This document shows, in pieces, positions 50,945 to 59,630 of a stretch of DNA of 64,000 nt (the stretch's first letter is position 1; each line of letters starts with the position of its first letter). Origin of the DNA: Globisporangium splendens. Lineage: Eukaryota; Oomycota; Peronosporomycetes; Pythiales; Pythiaceae. The stretch is from contig VFIW01000007.1 in the NCBI GenBank assembly GCA_006386115.1, forward strand, positions 902,693 through 966,692. The letters run 5' to 3'. The notes below the pieces were generated by a model. The model did no database searches, had not been told where the DNA came from, and saw nothing but the letters and a program-made list of their open reading frames with translations. The translations under genes and the position numbers were made by a program.

Positions 50945-53188
50945 TCAGAGAAGAGTAAGCCAGTTAGCGTAGCATGCTTCCTCCTGCTCGTACTGGGGGG
51001 AAGCGCGCTTTGCATTTGCACGTGTACTGCTGTCACCACTTGGTGAAGGACCTACTCTTGTATCTTCCTTCTGTCTCGTTGCTGCTGTAGACGATGGCGG
51101 TTTTAATGAAGCTTTGTACGGACTCTCCGCACTCACTGCTGTCTCAAAGGGATCTTCGAGGTTTCCAACGTGCTTCGCTTCAGTTTTGTTTGTATTTACA
51201 TCGCTTCGCACACGCGGAGTCTCTGGAACTGTGCTTTGTTGTCTCTTGTCGTTGACTGGCGTCTCCATTTGAGGTGTTCTTGGTGAACTCGAAGCTTTCT
51301 TGAGGCTGTCGGCGCTTCCATTCCGAATTGTAACCGCAAAATCACCGGATCGTTCTGTGACCACGGACCCGACGTCTTCGCTTCGATGCGCAGGATTCTC
51401 CTTGACAAACTCGTAAATCTCACGCGGAACAGGCTCTGGGAGCTCGTCGACACGCATCTTGAAAACACGAGCGAGCATCTCGATCGCGACCACGTCGTCT
51501 TTGGGGAGAAGCGTCACTGCGAGTCCGTACAGACATCCAAACAACAGACAGGTTAAGGGAACCAAAACCGCATACCAATATATCCACATGCAAACATACA
51601 ACATGAGTAAGAAGTAGAAAAGGATATTCGTCCACCAAAGCGTCCGGTTCGGCCGACGCGATGCAGGTACGTTGCTGGGTCCCGTGGCAGATCCAGGTTC
51701 ACGACAAAGTTGACCTTGTCGACATCGATGCCTCGGGCAGTGAGGTCTGTGGACACGAGCACACGCGTGTGGAAGGCGCGGAAACGGTGCATCACGTCAC
51801 TGCGGGTCGCTTGGCTCTGTGAGCCAGTAATGCACGCTGCAGGCCACCCTTGTGACTCCAGTGCGGTCGCGAGTGCTTCAGCGCGGAATTTGTCGTTGCA
51901 AAACACGATGCACTGGTTGAACACGACATCAGAGAGCAGTGCCGTAAGCTTCACGATCTTGGCTTTCATGCCCAACGCATCAGTGAATCCTCGGCCAGCA
52001 GGGTTGTCGTTGCTGTCGTTGCGGCTAGGAACTACGCTGTAGAACTGCTTGACGTGGCGCAACCAGAGCTCTGGGTTCTCGTTCGTTTCCTCGCGTAGTT
52101 TCCACGCTGAAATATCCTCGATCGACGACGACGCGAGCTCCACACTCACGTCATCGGGCCCACGAACGCGAACAATCTGTTTGTTTGAGCAATGCAACAG
52201 CAGCCATATATGGTGGAATGATCGGTAAATGGACAGCGTGAGAACTGGATGTGTACCTGGGGGCTTTGCATCATTTGTGCGACGGTGGCCAACTGATCCG
52301 TCGTAAACGTAGCTGAGAATGCGAGTGTCTGTCGCAAAAAGAGAGGGTAAGTCACAACCACAAACTACAATAGCTGAGTGCGAGTGGCGACGCACGAACC
52401 TGTCGCCTCTCTGGCAACACGCGCACAATGTATTGGATCTACAGGCACACATATATATATAACTGGTCTTAAGAGTATCTGCAGCAAGGATAAACGCCTT
52501 TGTATCCAGTGTAAATGATAGTGGCGTACCTCATTTTCAAAGTCGCTTTGGATCAGCTTGTCCACTTCGTCCAGCACCAGGAGCCGCAGCATATGGCAGT
52601 GCAGGATGCGCTGCTCGACGAGCGCCTTGACGCGGCCTGGGGTGCCGATCACGATGTGGCAGCCGTGCTTGAGCTTCTCCTGTTAATGCATTACATGCAG
52701 CATATGTGAGTGGCGTAAAGCAGGTGGCTTCCGTACATGCGCATTCCATAGGGCGAAAAGAATCATGGACTTATTGGCAAACGTACCCGATCCTGAGCAA
52801 TGGGCAGACCACCAATGAAAGTCTGGATGACGCACGCGGGGCGGAAGCGCGCGATGTCGCGCACCACGGCGTCGATCTGCATCGCGATCTCGCGGGTCGG
52901 CGTCAGGATCAGCACCAAAGGTTCAATTGCATTGACACCAAAGGCGTCGCCATGCGGCTGCTGCTGCTGCTTTTGATTCTTGGCGATCACATGCTCGACG
53001 GCGGCGACGCCGAACACGGCGGTCTTGCCCGTGCCGGACTTGGCCTGTCCGACCACATCGTTGCCGAAGAGCGCGAGCGGCAGCGCACGCAACTGGATTG
53101 GCGACGGCACGCGGAAACGCATGTGCGCGAGCGCGCGCTGCACGTCGCCATGCAGCGGCAGGTCCGCAAACAGTGTCGTCGTTGGCAT
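50945..53188 (-). CDS. DDX20: DEAD-box RNA helicase, DDX20/Gemin3-like
   Basis: Six exons: 53188-52787, 52679-52530, 52438-52400, 52328-52257, 52176-51628 and 51526-50945, in frame throughout, 597 aa. Motifs: Q motif (RVPSPIQ), I AKSGTGKT (49-56), Ia TPTREIA, GTPGR, II DEVD (not DEAD), III SAT, V DLTARGID, VI HRVGRTGR. Just after motif VI the RFG...GLAVTLL and DELPEPVP sequence resembles DDX20, the SMN-complex helicase that helps assemble spliceosomal snRNPs. The C-terminal 150 residues are disordered. Four introns are GT-AG (107, 91, 71, 80 bases). The last, 51627-51527, is of U12 AT-AC type. ATG 53188 is the first ATG in frame near the Q motif (an upstream TTG is not used). Confidence 0.88.
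51527..51627 (-). other. U12-type AT-AC intron in the DDX20-like gene
   Basis: Read on the minus strand the intron begins ATATCCTTTT, the U12 donor consensus. It contains TTCCCTTAAC, close to the U12 branch site, and ends in AC directly before GGACTCGCA. Removing its 101 bases restores the frame RFGGR-GLAVTLL. No GT-AG solution gives the conserved sequence. Confidence 0.85.
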
Positions 53189-53704: not shown

Positions 53705-56700
53705 CTACGATGTGCGTTTCGAGCGAGCTTTCAAGATTCGTCGACCTTTTGGAGCCTGCGGCGGGGCAGCTCCAACAGAGAAGCCTCCGTCTTGTTGACC
53801 TCCGAACCCGCCAGGTGCACCGAATCCACCTGCTGGAGGAGCAAACGAGACTGGAGCTGGTGCACCAAATGCTGGAGCAGCAGGAGCTCCAAACGTTGGA
53901 CTAGGATTACCAAAACCTGACGACGGAGCTGGAGCACCAAAAACAGGTGCTGCAGCTGGACCACCAAAGCCGGAAGGCGGAGCACCAAAGCCTGACGACG
54001 CAGCCGGAGCACCAAAACCAGACGATAGGGTAGGGGCGCCAAAGCCAGACGCCGATGATCCAAAACCTTGAGCAGCGCTTGCTGCTGGTGCGCCAAACGT
54101 TGTCGTGGCGGCTGGAGCTCCAAAACCCGACGAGCCGAAGCCAGAGGTACTACCAAAAGACGACGACGGCTGAGAAATTGGAGCGCCAAACGCGCTGCTT
54201 GCAACTGGGTTGGATGCACCAAACGTTGTTGCGGGAGCTGAGCCAAAGGCACTAGCACCCGATCCAAAGGTTGTCGTGGACGGAGTCGCTGGAGCTCCAA
54301 AGCCAGTCGAACTTGATGCAGACGCACCAAAGCCAGAAGAGGCCGGAGCAGCGGAACCAAATGCAGACGGTGTCGTCGCTGGCACACCAAAACCTGAAGA
54401 AGCTGGTGCTCCAAAACCAGTAGATGGCGCAGACGATCCAAAACCGGAAGCGGCTGGCGCAGATGCTCCAAAGCCAGACGGTGCTGGTGTCGCTGAGCCA
54501 AAACCAGAGGAAGCTGGAGCTGATGCACCAAAGCCAGATGTTACTGCTGATGCACCAAAGCCAGATGAAGCAGGTGCAGTGGATCCAAAACCAGAAGTAG
54601 ATGGTGCTGATGCGCCAAAGCTGAAAGTACTTGGGCTTGGAGTTGCAGCTTGAGTCGAAGACCCAAAGGTGAATGCTGGCGCAGCACTCGAAGCAGTAGG
54701 CTGTGCGGACGAGCCAAAACCAGACGGGGTTGATGTCGATGTTGGAGTCGGACCAAATGAGGTCGATGCACCAAAGCCAGACGAAGCAGCAGGAGCTACA
54801 GGTGTCGTGGACTGTGCTCCAGACGACGCCCCGAACGTAAACGCTGGTTGCGACGTCACAGCAGGCGTAATTGTCGCTGGAGCTACAGTTGACGACGATG
54901 ACGCTCCAAACGTAAACGAAGCTCCGGTAGAAGCTGCAGCATTCCCGAATGACGACAACGACGCAGGTGCTGCTGGAGAAGCACCGAAGGCAGGCGCGGT
55001 CACGGGTGCAGTTGATCCAAAGGCTGGAGTAGCACTTGCGCCAAAAGCAGGTGCAGCTGATGGAACTTTTGGAGCTGTTTCGCTACTACTCTGGCCAAAG
55101 CTAAAAGCAGGCTTCGCATCTTGACCAAATCCAGAGCTAGGCTTTTCAGCTGGTGCGGAGCTTGGAGACGATCCAAACACGAACGCTGGCTTTGCATCAG
55201 CCTTCTCTTCGTCCTTGGCTGGTGCAGGAGCCTGTGGCGTGGTCGATCCAAAAGAGAAAGCTGGCTTTGTCTCACTGCTGCCACCAGCTGAGGTGGCGGA
55301 GCCAAATGATGGCACTGGGACTTTTTCGGCTGAGCTCGCGGCCGCCTTCGAACTAGGTGCAGGCTGGGAAGAACCACCAAAAGTGAACGCTGAAGCAGCT
55401 GGAGCAGCATCCGGCTTACCGAAACCAAACGATGCCTTCTTCTGAGCTGGTTCTGATGCATCAGAGCTCACCGTGGTAGACGCACCAAAAGTATTGGCAG
55501 AGTCTTTTGGCTTTTCCGTGGCAGTAGCTCCGAACGAAGACCCGAGGGAGCCAGTCTTGGCTGGTTCACTCAAGGTAACTAAAGGCTTGGAACTCATGTG
55601 ACCGAAAGTAAACGAAGGTGCAGCCGTCGCCACTTTCGTTTCAGATGCTTTAATCGATTCACTCGATTTCACACTGGTGGTAGTCAAGGTCCCAAACGAA
55701 AATCCGGTTGCTTGCTCCGGTTTTTTAGTTGCATCGCTTGCACTCGAGTTTCCAAAGGTAAACCCAGTCACTTGCTCTGGTTTCTTACCAGCTGGTTCTG
55801 GGACTCTAGAAGCTGAAACGCCAAAAGAGAATCCACTACTTTTTTCTTCGCTGCTGGACTTGGAAGGTGGAGTGAAAGCGTAAGAAGGCTTCGACGCACT
55901 ACCGGTCGAACCATCAGTCGAACCAAACGAAAACGATGTCTTTCCTGCATCAGCAGCCGAGACTGGAGGCGCACTGAAGCTGAACGACAGATTCGACGCA
56001 TCGTTCCCAGTCTTTTCCGCTGCTGGAGTCACACCAAACGTAAAACCTGATCCGCTTTTTTGCGTTTCTACCGGCTTAGCTGCCGCAGCAGTTACGCCAA
56101 AAGTAAACCCACTCGAAGCGATTTGACCTGCAGGTTTGTCAGCTGGCTTTGTTGCTGTTGAAGACACGCCAAATGTGAAGCCACTCGATGAACTGGACGC
56201 AGGCTTCTCAGCTGGTTTAGCAGAAATAGAAGCTCCCGGTTTGGCAGTCTCGCAGCAAGGGCACTTGGAATGTTCAGCTCCGTTCGTGACCGAACACGTT
56301 GGGCACTTCCAGCTTCCTGGTGCCAACTGCGTGAAACGAGCCAACGGATTCACGCCACTGGAAACTGCCGGCGCAGAGGATTTGGACAAGGCAGCACTAG
56401 TGGAGGTAGCTTGGGCAGCAGCACCTGCAGGCTTCGCCGTCTCGCAACATGGACACTTGGCATGAGTCGCTTCATTGGTCACAGAACACGTTGGGCACTT
56501 CCAGCTACCAGGAGCCAACTTGGTAAATCGAGCCAGTGGATTCTCTGAGCTGGAGCTAGTTGTAGCAATTGGCACGTCTGCAGGTTTCGCACTTGCAAGT
56601 ACACTTGCCTCGACCTTAGTGGTCGACTTCGTGGACAAAAAGTCGCGTCTTGCTCTTGGAGACGCAGGGACAAACGAGAACGGAGCCTCGACGGCACCGT

Positions 56701-58540
56701 TCACTTTCGTAGTTTTCTTCGTAGAACTTCTCTTTGGTGGCTCTCGCTGGGAAGGTGAGGGAGAAAACACGAATTGGATATCGTCGACATCCATCTCGAA
56801 CGCCTTTCTCTTCAAATGCGCATCAGCTTCACGGACTGGAATCGTAAACGCAAAAGTACCAAACTTTCTCAAACCACCTTGCTTCACGACTGGGGTCATG
56901 GACACAGCTTGAGGAGAAAACAACGCTGAAGAAGCCTTCGATTTCATCGTAGGCGTCCGCATCACACTCAGTGACTTGGAAGGAACTGTAGTTAATCTAG
57001 CAGGCGACGATGGAAAGTTCACGCGAGGAAGGGTGGTCGTTGGAGGCACAACATCATCTTCAGGCTCCTCATCGTCTTGCATGCGAGCATTCTCATTGTC
57101 GTCAGCGAGGGCGAGGTGGTACTTGGCCCATGACAATGACGTCTGCGGGGTCGGCTTCTTAGCTTCGCGCTCCAGCGGATTCTGAACCTTGTTCAACGTC
57201 GATAAGATCTTTTCAGCAACTGCCGAGGAGTAAGCACTGCGAGCCGCCGCATCACGTTTCGCACCAGTCAACAAACGCGAAGGACGCGGTTTTCGCTCCA
57301 CTCGTTCTTCGCGCGTCAGCATTTGGCCACGAAGCGCAATACCCGAGAAGTAAATCGGTCGGTTTTCGTTCGATCGCGCACGCTTTCCGTAAGGTACAGC
57401 AAGCTGAAGGTCGCCATTTGAGTCACTGTTTTTCTTCTCCAGGTCCGAACCTCGGCCATTGTCTCTCGAAGTCATCGATCCAGGAACGTATGCCAATTTT
57501 TTCCCAGATCCATTTGAAATCGATCCGATTGGTCGGTCCTCGAAGCCTCGTGCGAGCGCATTTTGTGTCAGCGCCAATGACGCCTGAGGGCTCGACTCGA
57601 CCAATCCTCGCAATTGAAGTGAGAGACGCTCGTATTCCTCATACGAGATAGTCCGTTTGTGCTTGATCACAGCCAATGGAGAGTCCTTTGGCGACCCAGA
57701 AAGCCGTGTGCGGCGTCTGTGGACACGGCGCATATCATCATCCGGTGATTCGTGGCCACCAATACGAAGCGCCTTGGATTTCTGCGAAGGAATAGGAAGG
57801 AACGCTTTCTGAGCGCTGCTGTTCTTCCGCCGTTGGGTTCGAAGAACAGGGCCAAGTTCCACATCGCGCGAGCGGGACCGCTTCGCGGAGGTTGGCGACT
57901 TCGATGCCGAGGATTGTGTAGATGGCGCCTTCGGTGAGGATGGCGAGCTTGCGCTTCGTTCCGGCGTAGCCGCAACACCGCTCACCAACTCCATGATGGA
58001 CTTCTTTGGAGAACTCGTGTGACCCGCTTCGCTCACCTCCTTCGTCACGCTCGACGCAGTCTCAATCTCTTCTTCGTCTTCCTCCGTCTGCTGGTCCATC
58101 TCTTCATCTTGTTGCTGATCTTCTTCTTTGTCATTCTCTTGACCATCCTCACGAGTAACCTTTTCTTTGTTGTCATTTTCCGTCGACACGACCGTCTCTT
58201 CCACAACATCAACAGTCGTCGTCGTGGCCTCTTCTGTCACCGACTGCATGCCGTCGTCGCTGTCCGTGAACTCATTATCGTCGTCTTCATGCTCTTCGCC
58301 GTCAAACGCGTCGTCGTCGCCCACCAGTTGGTTCACGATCGGGATGTAACTCAGAAAGCGGCTAAACAGTCCGCCGCGCTGCTGTGGCTTGCCGTCGTCG
58401 CCGAGAGCGTCCACTTCAGCGTGGCGGCTGCGACGCGAGCCAGCGACACCGTAGGGCGTGCCGGCGGCGCGGCGCTGCTTCTGGCGCTGCGCCTTCGTCG
58501 TCACGCGCGACGTCAGCGTCACGACTTCAGCGTCCGTCAT
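53705..58540 (-). CDS. FG-repeat nucleoporin with two RanBP2-type zinc fingers
   Basis: A nuclear pore protein of 1611 aa from ATG 58540 (the frame is open further up, but that part reads as leader). Near the N-terminus a hydrophobic stretch (GGLFSRFLSYIPIVNQL) resembles the membrane-binding amphipathic helix of basket nucleoporins Nup1/Nup153, then an acidic region. Residues about 680-705 and 745-770 are RanBP2-type zinc fingers (GSWKCPTCSVTN...CPCCETAKP, twice). From about 770 on the protein is FG-rich, first FxFG-like (FTFGV, FSFGS), then dense SGFGA repeats. The C-terminus GGFSVGAAPPQ-KGRRILKARSK is basic, as in plant and yeast basket nucleoporins that bind importins. The combination suggests Nup153/Nup1-like function in import and mRNA export. 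No intron. Confidence 0.88.
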   Translation of the reverse strand: MTDAEVVTLTSRVTTKAQRQKQRRAAGTPYGVAGSRRSRHAEVDALGDDGKPQQRGGLFSRFLSYIPIVNQLVGDDDAFDGEEHEDDDNEFTDSDDGMQSVTEEATTTTVDVVEETVVSTENDNKEKVTREDGQENDKEEDQQQDEEMDQQTEEDEEEIETASSVTKEVSEAGHTSSPKKSIMELVSGVAATPERSASSPSSPKAPSTQSSASKSPTSAKRSRSRDVELGPVLRTQRRKNSSAQKAFLPIPSQKSKALRIGGHESPDDDMRRVHRRRTRLSGSPKDSPLAVIKHKRTISYEEYERLSLQLRGLVESSPQASLALTQNALARGFEDRPIGSISNGSGKKLAYVPGSMTSRDNGRGSDLEKKNSDSNGDLQLAVPYGKRARSNENRPIYFSGIALRGQMLTREERVERKPRPSRLLTGAKRDAAARSAYSSAVAEKILSTLNKVQNPLEREAKKPTPQTSLSWAKYHLALADDNENARMQDDEEPEDDVVPPTTTLPRVNFPSSPARLTTVPSKSLSVMRTPTMKSKASSALFSPQAVSMTPVVKQGGLRKFGTFAFTIPVREADAHLKRKAFEMDVDDIQFVFSPSPSQREPPKRSSTKKTTKVNGAVEAPFSFVPASPRARRDFLSTKSTTKVEASVLASAKPADVPIATTSSSSENPLARFTKLAPGSWKCPTCSVTNEATHAKCPCCETAKPAGAAAQATSTSAALSKSSAPAVSSGVNPLARFTQLAPGSWKCPTCSVTNGAEHSKCPCCETAKPGASISAKPAEKPASSSSSGFTFGVSSTATKPADKPAGQIASSGFTFGVTAAAAKPVETQKSGSGFTFGVTPAAEKTGNDASNLSFSFSAPPVSAADAGKTSFSFGSTDGSTGSASKPSYAFTPPSKSSSEEKSSGFSFGVSASRVPEPAGKKPEQVTGFTFGNSSASDATKKPEQATGFSFGTLTTTSVKSSESIKASETKVATAAPSFTFGHMSSKPLVTLSEPAKTGSLGSSFGATATEKPKDSANTFGASTTVSSDASEPAQKKASFGFGKPDAAPAASAFTFGGSSQPAPSSKAAASSAEKVPVPSFGSATSAGGSSETKPAFSFGSTTPQAPAPAKDEEKADAKPAFVFGSSPSSAPAEKPSSGFGQDAKPAFSFGQSSSETAPKVPSAAPAFGASATPAFGSTAPVTAPAFGASPAAPASLSSFGNAAASTGASFTFGASSSSTVAPATITPAVTSQPAFTFGASSGAQSTTPVAPAASSGFGASTSFGPTPTSTSTPSGFGSSAQPTASSAAPAFTFGSSTQAATPSPSTFSFGASAPSTSGFGSTAPASSGFGASAVTSGFGASAPASSGFGSATPAPSGFGASAPAASGFGSSAPSTGFGAPASSGFGVPATTPSAFGSAAPASSGFGASASSSTGFGAPATPSTTTFGSGASAFGSAPATTFGASNPVASSAFGAPISQPSSSFGSTSGFGSSGFGAPAATTTFGAPAASAAQGFGSSASGFGAPTLSSGFGAPAASSGFGAPPSGFGGPAAAPVFGAPAPSSGFGNPSPTFGAPAAPAFGAPAPVSFAPPAGGFGAPGGFGGQQDGGFSVGAAPPQAPKGRRILKARSKRTS

Positions 58541-59630
58541 CGCGTGCGTTCGACACTCGCTGCTTCCTACGAACAGGTCAAACAGGGCGAGGTGCAATGG
58601 GAATGGAGGCGGGTGGCGCTTCCTTTGAAGTCGGTTTTGCGATACTGTGGGTGGCGGGTGGCCGCAGTTTTCCTTCCTTCCTTCCTTCCTTCGACGCGCG
58701 CGCGCAAAATGCAGGGTTGCCGCCTCTTGCACACTCGAATAAAACCTAAGGTATTGTTTCCAAGGTTTTTTGTAAATTGGATCCCAAACAGACAGATGGG
58801 ACAAGCAGTTTCGCTTCTTTTTCTGTGACGACGAGGTTTTGGCGAACGAGGTTTTTTTATTGTGTTGAGAAAGAAGCTTCGATTGAAAAATTACCGAAAC
58901 TTATTTTGCTTGGTGCAGAATTCTTGAAACGACTGCTGGTTCCCGCCAAAAGTACTCGCATACTGAACGCAAGTGTAAATGGTTTTGCACCTAAGCGGAG
59001 AGTTGAAGTGTCCCAAAGAGCGAAAGGGAACGAGAACCCACTGGAACCGTAGTTTTCACGAAGAAGGGGGAACCTGTTTGAGAAAATAAACGACAAAAGA
59101 GGATCATCATCTCTGCAAAGACACCAGTGTTGTACTCATAGTAAGTGACAAAAGGAGGGTGACAATAGTAGAGGGTGGACGAGAACAGCCGCATCCAGAC
59201 CCACACTCACTGAAAAAGGATCCATTCCCAACAGACACAGTGAGCAGCACTCATGCACATAACTGACGAGAACGTTCAAGCAAAAAAAAACATGTCGTGC
59301 TGTTGTTAGTCACTGCCCTCAGGTACATTGATCTCTGTACCCAAGTTCATTTTTTCCTTCCACACGGCAAGTGAGCAGCACTCACGCTGCCCTGTAGCAA
59401 CCACCTGTGCATATTATAGCTTCATGAGAATAGGTGAAGCCCGTCCCAATCCGGTGTGCGTCATTTGCAAGCTAAAACGAGATTATGTGGCAGCGATGTG
59501 TGACGAACCTGGAAGAGCTCCAGTCAGAACACACTGAACCCATTAAGCAAAGCGAAAAGATGTGTATGGCGTGCAGCAAAAATAAGAACAGCAGGTGACA
59601 CCTGGATACTCAAGTCTCGTCATGTGATAG
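58541..59630. other. intergenic, nucleoporin promoter and hydrolase 3' flank
   Basis: 1.09 kb without a recognised gene. A (CTTC)n-like microsatellite (58670-58691, GGAA on the minus strand) lies in the nucleoporin leader. GTGAGCAGCACTCA occurs twice (59240 and 59371), of unknown meaning. Confidence 0.4.

Follow-up and report, generated by a model that had tools for sequence, protein, structure and literature searches.

Analysis of a 64-kb stretch of the Globisporangium splendens genome (the window) indicates, almost beyond doubt, that a genuine minor-spliceosome (U12-type, A-type) intron interrupts a gene predicted to be the oomycete orthologue of DDX20/Gemin3. The sequence and frame of this intron, the genes for the splicing machinery and a protein-level signature in relatives are directly established. 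As an intron it is ordinary for oomycetes, in which minor splicing is already known. What the analysis adds is an apparent conservation in DDX20, repeated misannotation, long gaps between branch site and intron end, and an altered U6atac.

Intron 5 and its host gene

The gene was modelled on the minus strand as six exons encoding 597 residues, with exon limits chosen by visual inspection of reading frames and junction motifs. Introns 1 to 4 are of the GT-AG kind, and each of the five introns is in phase 0.

52787..53188, minus strand: exon 1, with the start codon at 53188 (gene model)
52530..52679, minus strand: exon 2 (gene model)
52400..52438, minus strand: exon 3, a 39-nt mini-exon, IQYIVRVLPERRQ (gene model)
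52257..52328, minus strand: exon 4 (gene model)
51628..52176, minus strand: exon 5, with helicase motif VI and RFGGR at its end (gene model)
51527..51627, minus strand: U12-type AT-AC intron (intron 5; direct sequence reading)
51618..51627, minus strand: 5' splice site ATATCCTTTT, a perfect match to RTATCCTTT
51552..51560, minus strand: branch site TCCCTTAAC, 8/9 to TTCCTTRAC (1 mismatch)
51554 and 51553, minus strand: candidate branch adenosines, inside the branch-site motif
51527..51528, minus strand: AC 3' splice site, the first AC downstream of the branch-site motif
50945..51526, minus strand: exon 6, starting at GLAVTLL and closing with the stop codon (gene model)

Intron 5 runs from 51627 (the A of AT) to 51527 (the C of AC) on the minus strand, a length of 101 nt. 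The initial annotation had described an AT-AC intron with U12-type marks here, and its coordinates, ends and motifs all proved exact. The 10-nt motif TTCCCTTAAC at 51561-51552 lies 25 nt from the intron end, and the distance from branch site to AC had been called longer than usual (about 25 bases). This holds against the 10 to 20 nt described for U12-type introns (PMC8199999), a range that is typical but not defining and is exceeded both here and in the RPL31 intron described below (36 nt).

Splicing 51627/51527 restores RFGGR-GLAVTLL in phase 0, as had been claimed. Among 37 frame-keeping junctions listed near intron 5 (GT-AG, GC-AG, AT-AC and AT-AG, each at least 40 nt), it is the only one to do so; the other 36 fail. 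The real window holds one motif pair, defined as RTATCCTT plus a branch site with at most one mismatch to TTCCTTRAC and then AC or AG. In dinucleotide shuffles of the window, at least one comparable pair arose on either strand in 8 of 300, a count that does not demand placement at a conserved codon. Intron 5 is this sole pair, and at one mismatch or fewer no other U12-type intron was found in the window, in which an Rfam scan also gave nothing above cut-off. Were intron 5 retained, the reading frame would run on for 24 extra residues to a TAA stop at the branch adenosines (open reading frame 51553-52530). By arithmetic, this stop in the branch site would yield a product of ∼428 residues lacking the C-terminal 193.

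The predicted helicase contains DEAD (PF00270) and Helicase_C (PF00271) domains. Among the best 120 of 7583 matches, it most resembles a protein of Globisporangium ultimum (86% identity over 66% of the query). The proposed DDX20/Gemin3-like identity is supported by the N-terminal domain, to which the likeness to human DDX20/Gemin3 applies: human DDX20 is its first match among solved structures (138 bits), followed by CshA (130) and DDX39A (121). The full protein favours DDX39A, whose chains lead together with those of eIF4A, and DDX20 is absent from the best 60 of 190 matches; at 230 residues, the solved chain of DDX20 covers roughly a single domain. The best 120 of 7583 matches include 84 non-oomycete rows, of which 31 are named DDX20 or box polypeptide 20 (a visual count from abbreviated names); no other DEAD-box family name was seen, the remainder having general names or none. 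The G. ultimum model P0001 skips the 39-nt mini-exon, joining FENE to TLAFSATF. The neighbouring minus-strand frame (53705-58900) is open for 1731 residues; it contains FG-type repeats plus two stretches resembling zinc fingers, and by eye it looks like a nucleoporin.

Minor-spliceosome components and a second U12-type intron

In the genome (53.3 Mb, 195 contigs), family (profile and covariance-model) searches recovered three of the four minor snRNAs for which the initial annotation had proposed a search. U11 and U6atac each gave one match above cut-off (50.1 bits versus 39, and 78.6 bits versus 33 over the full model), and U12 gave one full-length match below it (47.3 bits versus 53). For the fourth, U4atac, family searches gave no hit at E values up to 0.001 or up to 10 (48/910 candidates scored in each); at the latter setting, 11 of 14 prokaryote controls gave below-cut-off matches. 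One pattern of complementarity to U6atac also gave 0 matches to U4atac, and the reversed pattern gave 5. Among minor-specific proteins, CENATAC (PF14968) is represented by three stretches on one contig, two above the cut-off of 25.3 bits (84.3 and 27.5) and one just below it (24.7); PDCD7 was not found in the genome (3 candidates scored). The misses for U4atac, PDCD7 and SMN Tudor carry little weight, as the control genomes are prokaryotes.

The pairing regions of U11 and U12 are intact, and the U11 5' end forms 9 contiguous pairs with the 5' splice site of DDX20 and 10 with that of RPL31, G-U pairs being allowed. In human cells, loss of CENATAC affects 92% of A-type and 24% of G-type minor introns (PMC8280824). 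From these sequences we infer that the organism probably keeps a working minor spliceosome. A link of the helicase to snRNP assembly may also be supposed; the genome has a Gemin2 family match at 167 bits, and no SMN Tudor was found in it (0 candidates). Near the U11 gene lies a weak match to the C/D-box snoRNA snoZ163 (L002:2271-2347, plus strand; 23.6 bits, below the cut-off of 39).

The gene for RPL31 (L007, G000:C125 near 396548-396745, minus strand) contains a U12-type GT-AG intron with GTATCCTTTTTG and TTCCTTGAC, whose GCAG end comes 36 nt after the branch-site motif. It alone stood out when the loci L001-L007 (snRNA, CENATAC and RPL31 genes; not Gemin2) were scanned for further U12-type introns. 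A U12-type GT-AG intron is likewise reported near the 5' end of L31 in Phytophthora sojae, P. infestans and P. ramorum (PMC2846911).

Conservation across oomycetes

Minor introns are established in oomycetes (PMC2846911, PMC10639083, PMC5608401). The Phytophthora examples, an AT-AC intron in a peptidyl-prolyl isomerase gene and the GT-AG intron in L31, share with the introns described here the RTATCCTT 5' splice site and a UCCUUAAC-like branch site, and the L31 intron is of the same kind as that in this genome. Unlike these, the host gene of intron 5 is DDX20, and the main text of that paper has no word beginning with helicase (PMC2846911). It reports further AT-AC introns, left unnamed in the parts consulted. 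A pan-eukaryotic survey lists minor introns in Saprolegnia and Phytophthora, also oomycetes, with dozens per Saprolegnia species, and DDX20, Pythium and Globisporangium are absent from its main text (PMC10639083). A literature search for Pythium ultimum with an AT-AC intron found no paper. In the available text of PMC6904755, U12-type introns appear solely in a reference title.

The initial annotation had called for comparison of the intron in related species. This was carried out at protein level on 36 oomycete-type rows (32 named oomycetes and four from source lgn) among the best 120 matches, set against 84 other rows from a first homology search and 84 from a second (the latter for the Ile-Ser-Phe test only; best 120 in each). 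Ile-Ser-Phe is the product of ATATCCTTT (ATA TCC TTT). Among the matches listed, a continuation with these residues occurs at the intron codon, directly after RFG or RYG plus two residues, in 6 of the 36 oomycete-type rows and 0 of the 168 others. The six rows belong to P. boehmeriae, P. ramorum, P. kernoviae (two rows), Thraustotheca and Saprolegnia parasitica. The signature was thus recovered in relatives, but 24 of the 36 listed rows join directly, a state that from protein alone is inseparable from absence of the intron. In the remaining comparison, the motif VI pattern (with the following F/Y/W and G/A) went unmatched in 6 of the 36. Of the 84 other rows listed from the first search, 79 join, 3 have no match to the motif pattern and 2 read otherwise.

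The S. parasitica insert comprises 17 residues, the last of them Tyr, as would fit a translated 51-nt AT-AC intron; in S. diclina these 17 residues are absent and the join is clean. Motif VI is missing from the G. ultimum model and partly missing from those of Lagenidium and P. oligandrum, and the Achlya model lacks the residues just after it. Such broken motif VI regions would fit a gene finder forced to GT-AG junctions. Two rows, from P. kernoviae (P0024) and P. cactorum (P0029), are non-matching in other ways. In P0032 and P0035 the frames seem to begin in an upstream intron and read through the junction without intron 5; these rows resemble unspliced genomic frames, which suggests intron loss in those species.

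The occurrence of Ile-Ser-Phe at the same codon in 6 of 36 oomycete-type rows versus 0 of 168 others makes the intron look old within oomycetes. The last shared ancestor of Saprolegniales and Peronosporales/Pythiales probably had it already, with later loss in some lineages. At the homologous codon, ATATCCTT and AC ends are predicted for the genes of P. ramorum, P. kernoviae, S. parasitica, T. clavata and P. oligandrum.

An altered U6atac

The U6atac gene (L003:1501-1639, minus strand; G000:C111:122599-122737) is the sole copy found; neither family search (46/1483 candidates scored) nor DNA search of the genome revealed another. Direct reading shows TATA 30 nt upstream of the modelled start, and the gene closes with a run of T. 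As in Rfam U6atac (RF00619), GGUUAGCA and the terminal U run are kept in a full-model match, but the 5' splice site-pairing box of the family, AAAGGAGA, is replaced by AGCCGAGA. In the standard register, which agrees with GG14/15:CC5/6 pairing (PMC4980772), U6atac pairs with +4, +5, +8 (U-G), +9 and +10 (U-G) of both introns. Complementarity to +4 to +9 is therefore broken, with +6/+7 unpaired because U6atac positions 12-14 read GCC; the Rfam consensus pairs without a break from +4 to +10 with both introns in this register. A downstream register, present in the consensus too, provides 8 contiguous pairs with the DDX20 site and 7 with that of RPL31, which argues against a simple loss of U6atac pairing. 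The best duplex with the DDX20 site has −10.0 kcal/mol, versus −11.4 for the consensus, over the first 32 nt of U6atac, and −5.6 versus −9.9 over the first 20 nt. Comparison searches for U6atac gave 0 matches in viral contigs and 0, then 1, in prokaryote genomes; that one match, in Paenibacillus, is by eye unlike a U6atac gene.

The odd U6atac may be characteristic of the lineage, an error in the assembly or a copy that does not function. We propose, tentatively and with more doubt than confidence, that the catalytic check of the 5' splice site has changed in this oomycete lineage: U6atac nucleotides 12-14 would have drifted and broken the +6/+7 helix, ATATCCTTT/GTATCCTTT would have been kept because U11 reads them, and the spacing from branch site to 3' splice site would have lengthened. 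If so, recognition would depend on U11, on proteins and on a small number of U6atac pairs (or the downstream register).

Alternative explanations

The U12-type class assigned in the initial annotation is backed by the sequence itself, by the matches to U11, U12, U6atac and CENATAC, by the RPL31 intron and by protein models of other oomycetes. It could still be supposed that the intron, despite its U12-type ends, is removed by the major spliceosome as a rare U2-type AT-AC intron because the minor machine is decaying. Major AT-AC introns do exist in human cells (PMC8280824), and both the altered 5' splice site box of U6atac and the failure of family and pattern searches to find U4atac would suit a decaying machine. 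A perfect 5' splice site, a near-perfect branch site, intact U11 and U12 pairing regions, CENATAC and the retention of a U12-type intron in RPL31 make this very unlikely.

A slightly more improbable reading is a shifted GT-AG intron of the major spliceosome, with donor 51635 (TTTG/GTGGAC) and an acceptor ending at 51517 (TCGCAG), in which the AT-AC appearance is due to chance. The junction 51635/51517 keeps the frame, and the models of Achlya, Lagenidium and P. oligandrum contain similarly shifted joins; however, it removes GGRGLA, counterparts of which are present in the 24 directly joining rows of the 36 oomycete-type rows listed, and it is at odds with the recurrence of Ile-Ser-Phe at the AT-AC boundary in six rows. 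The donor GTGGAC is also far from the usual GT-AG consensus. Least credible of all is that 51527..51627 is coding or a pseudogene feature: the homologous stretch in S. parasitica is annotated as coding, but here 101 nt with an in-frame stop are involved and their removal restores a conserved motif.

Proposed mechanism and implications

For the U12-type intron that we prefer, splicing itself, the order of its events, the age and losses of the intron and any dependence of snRNP assembly on it are what we infer from the observations above. U11 would pair with TATCCTTTT at the intron 5' end and U12 across the branch site, with CENATAC promoting the use of A-type ends; U6atac would then replace U11, and cutting would join codon CGA to GGA.

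The AT-AC intron appears to be kept in several oomycetes, in which gene models seem to break it. The animal orthologue of DDX20 helps to build snRNPs (PMC6904755), so that retention of the intron could feed back on splicing. Pairing between U6atac and the 5' splice site has been probed in cultured cells by CC5/6GG and GG14/15CC mutants (PMC4980772). Should the odd U6atac prove real and active, this organism would provide a natural test of how much of that pairing a minor spliceosome requires.
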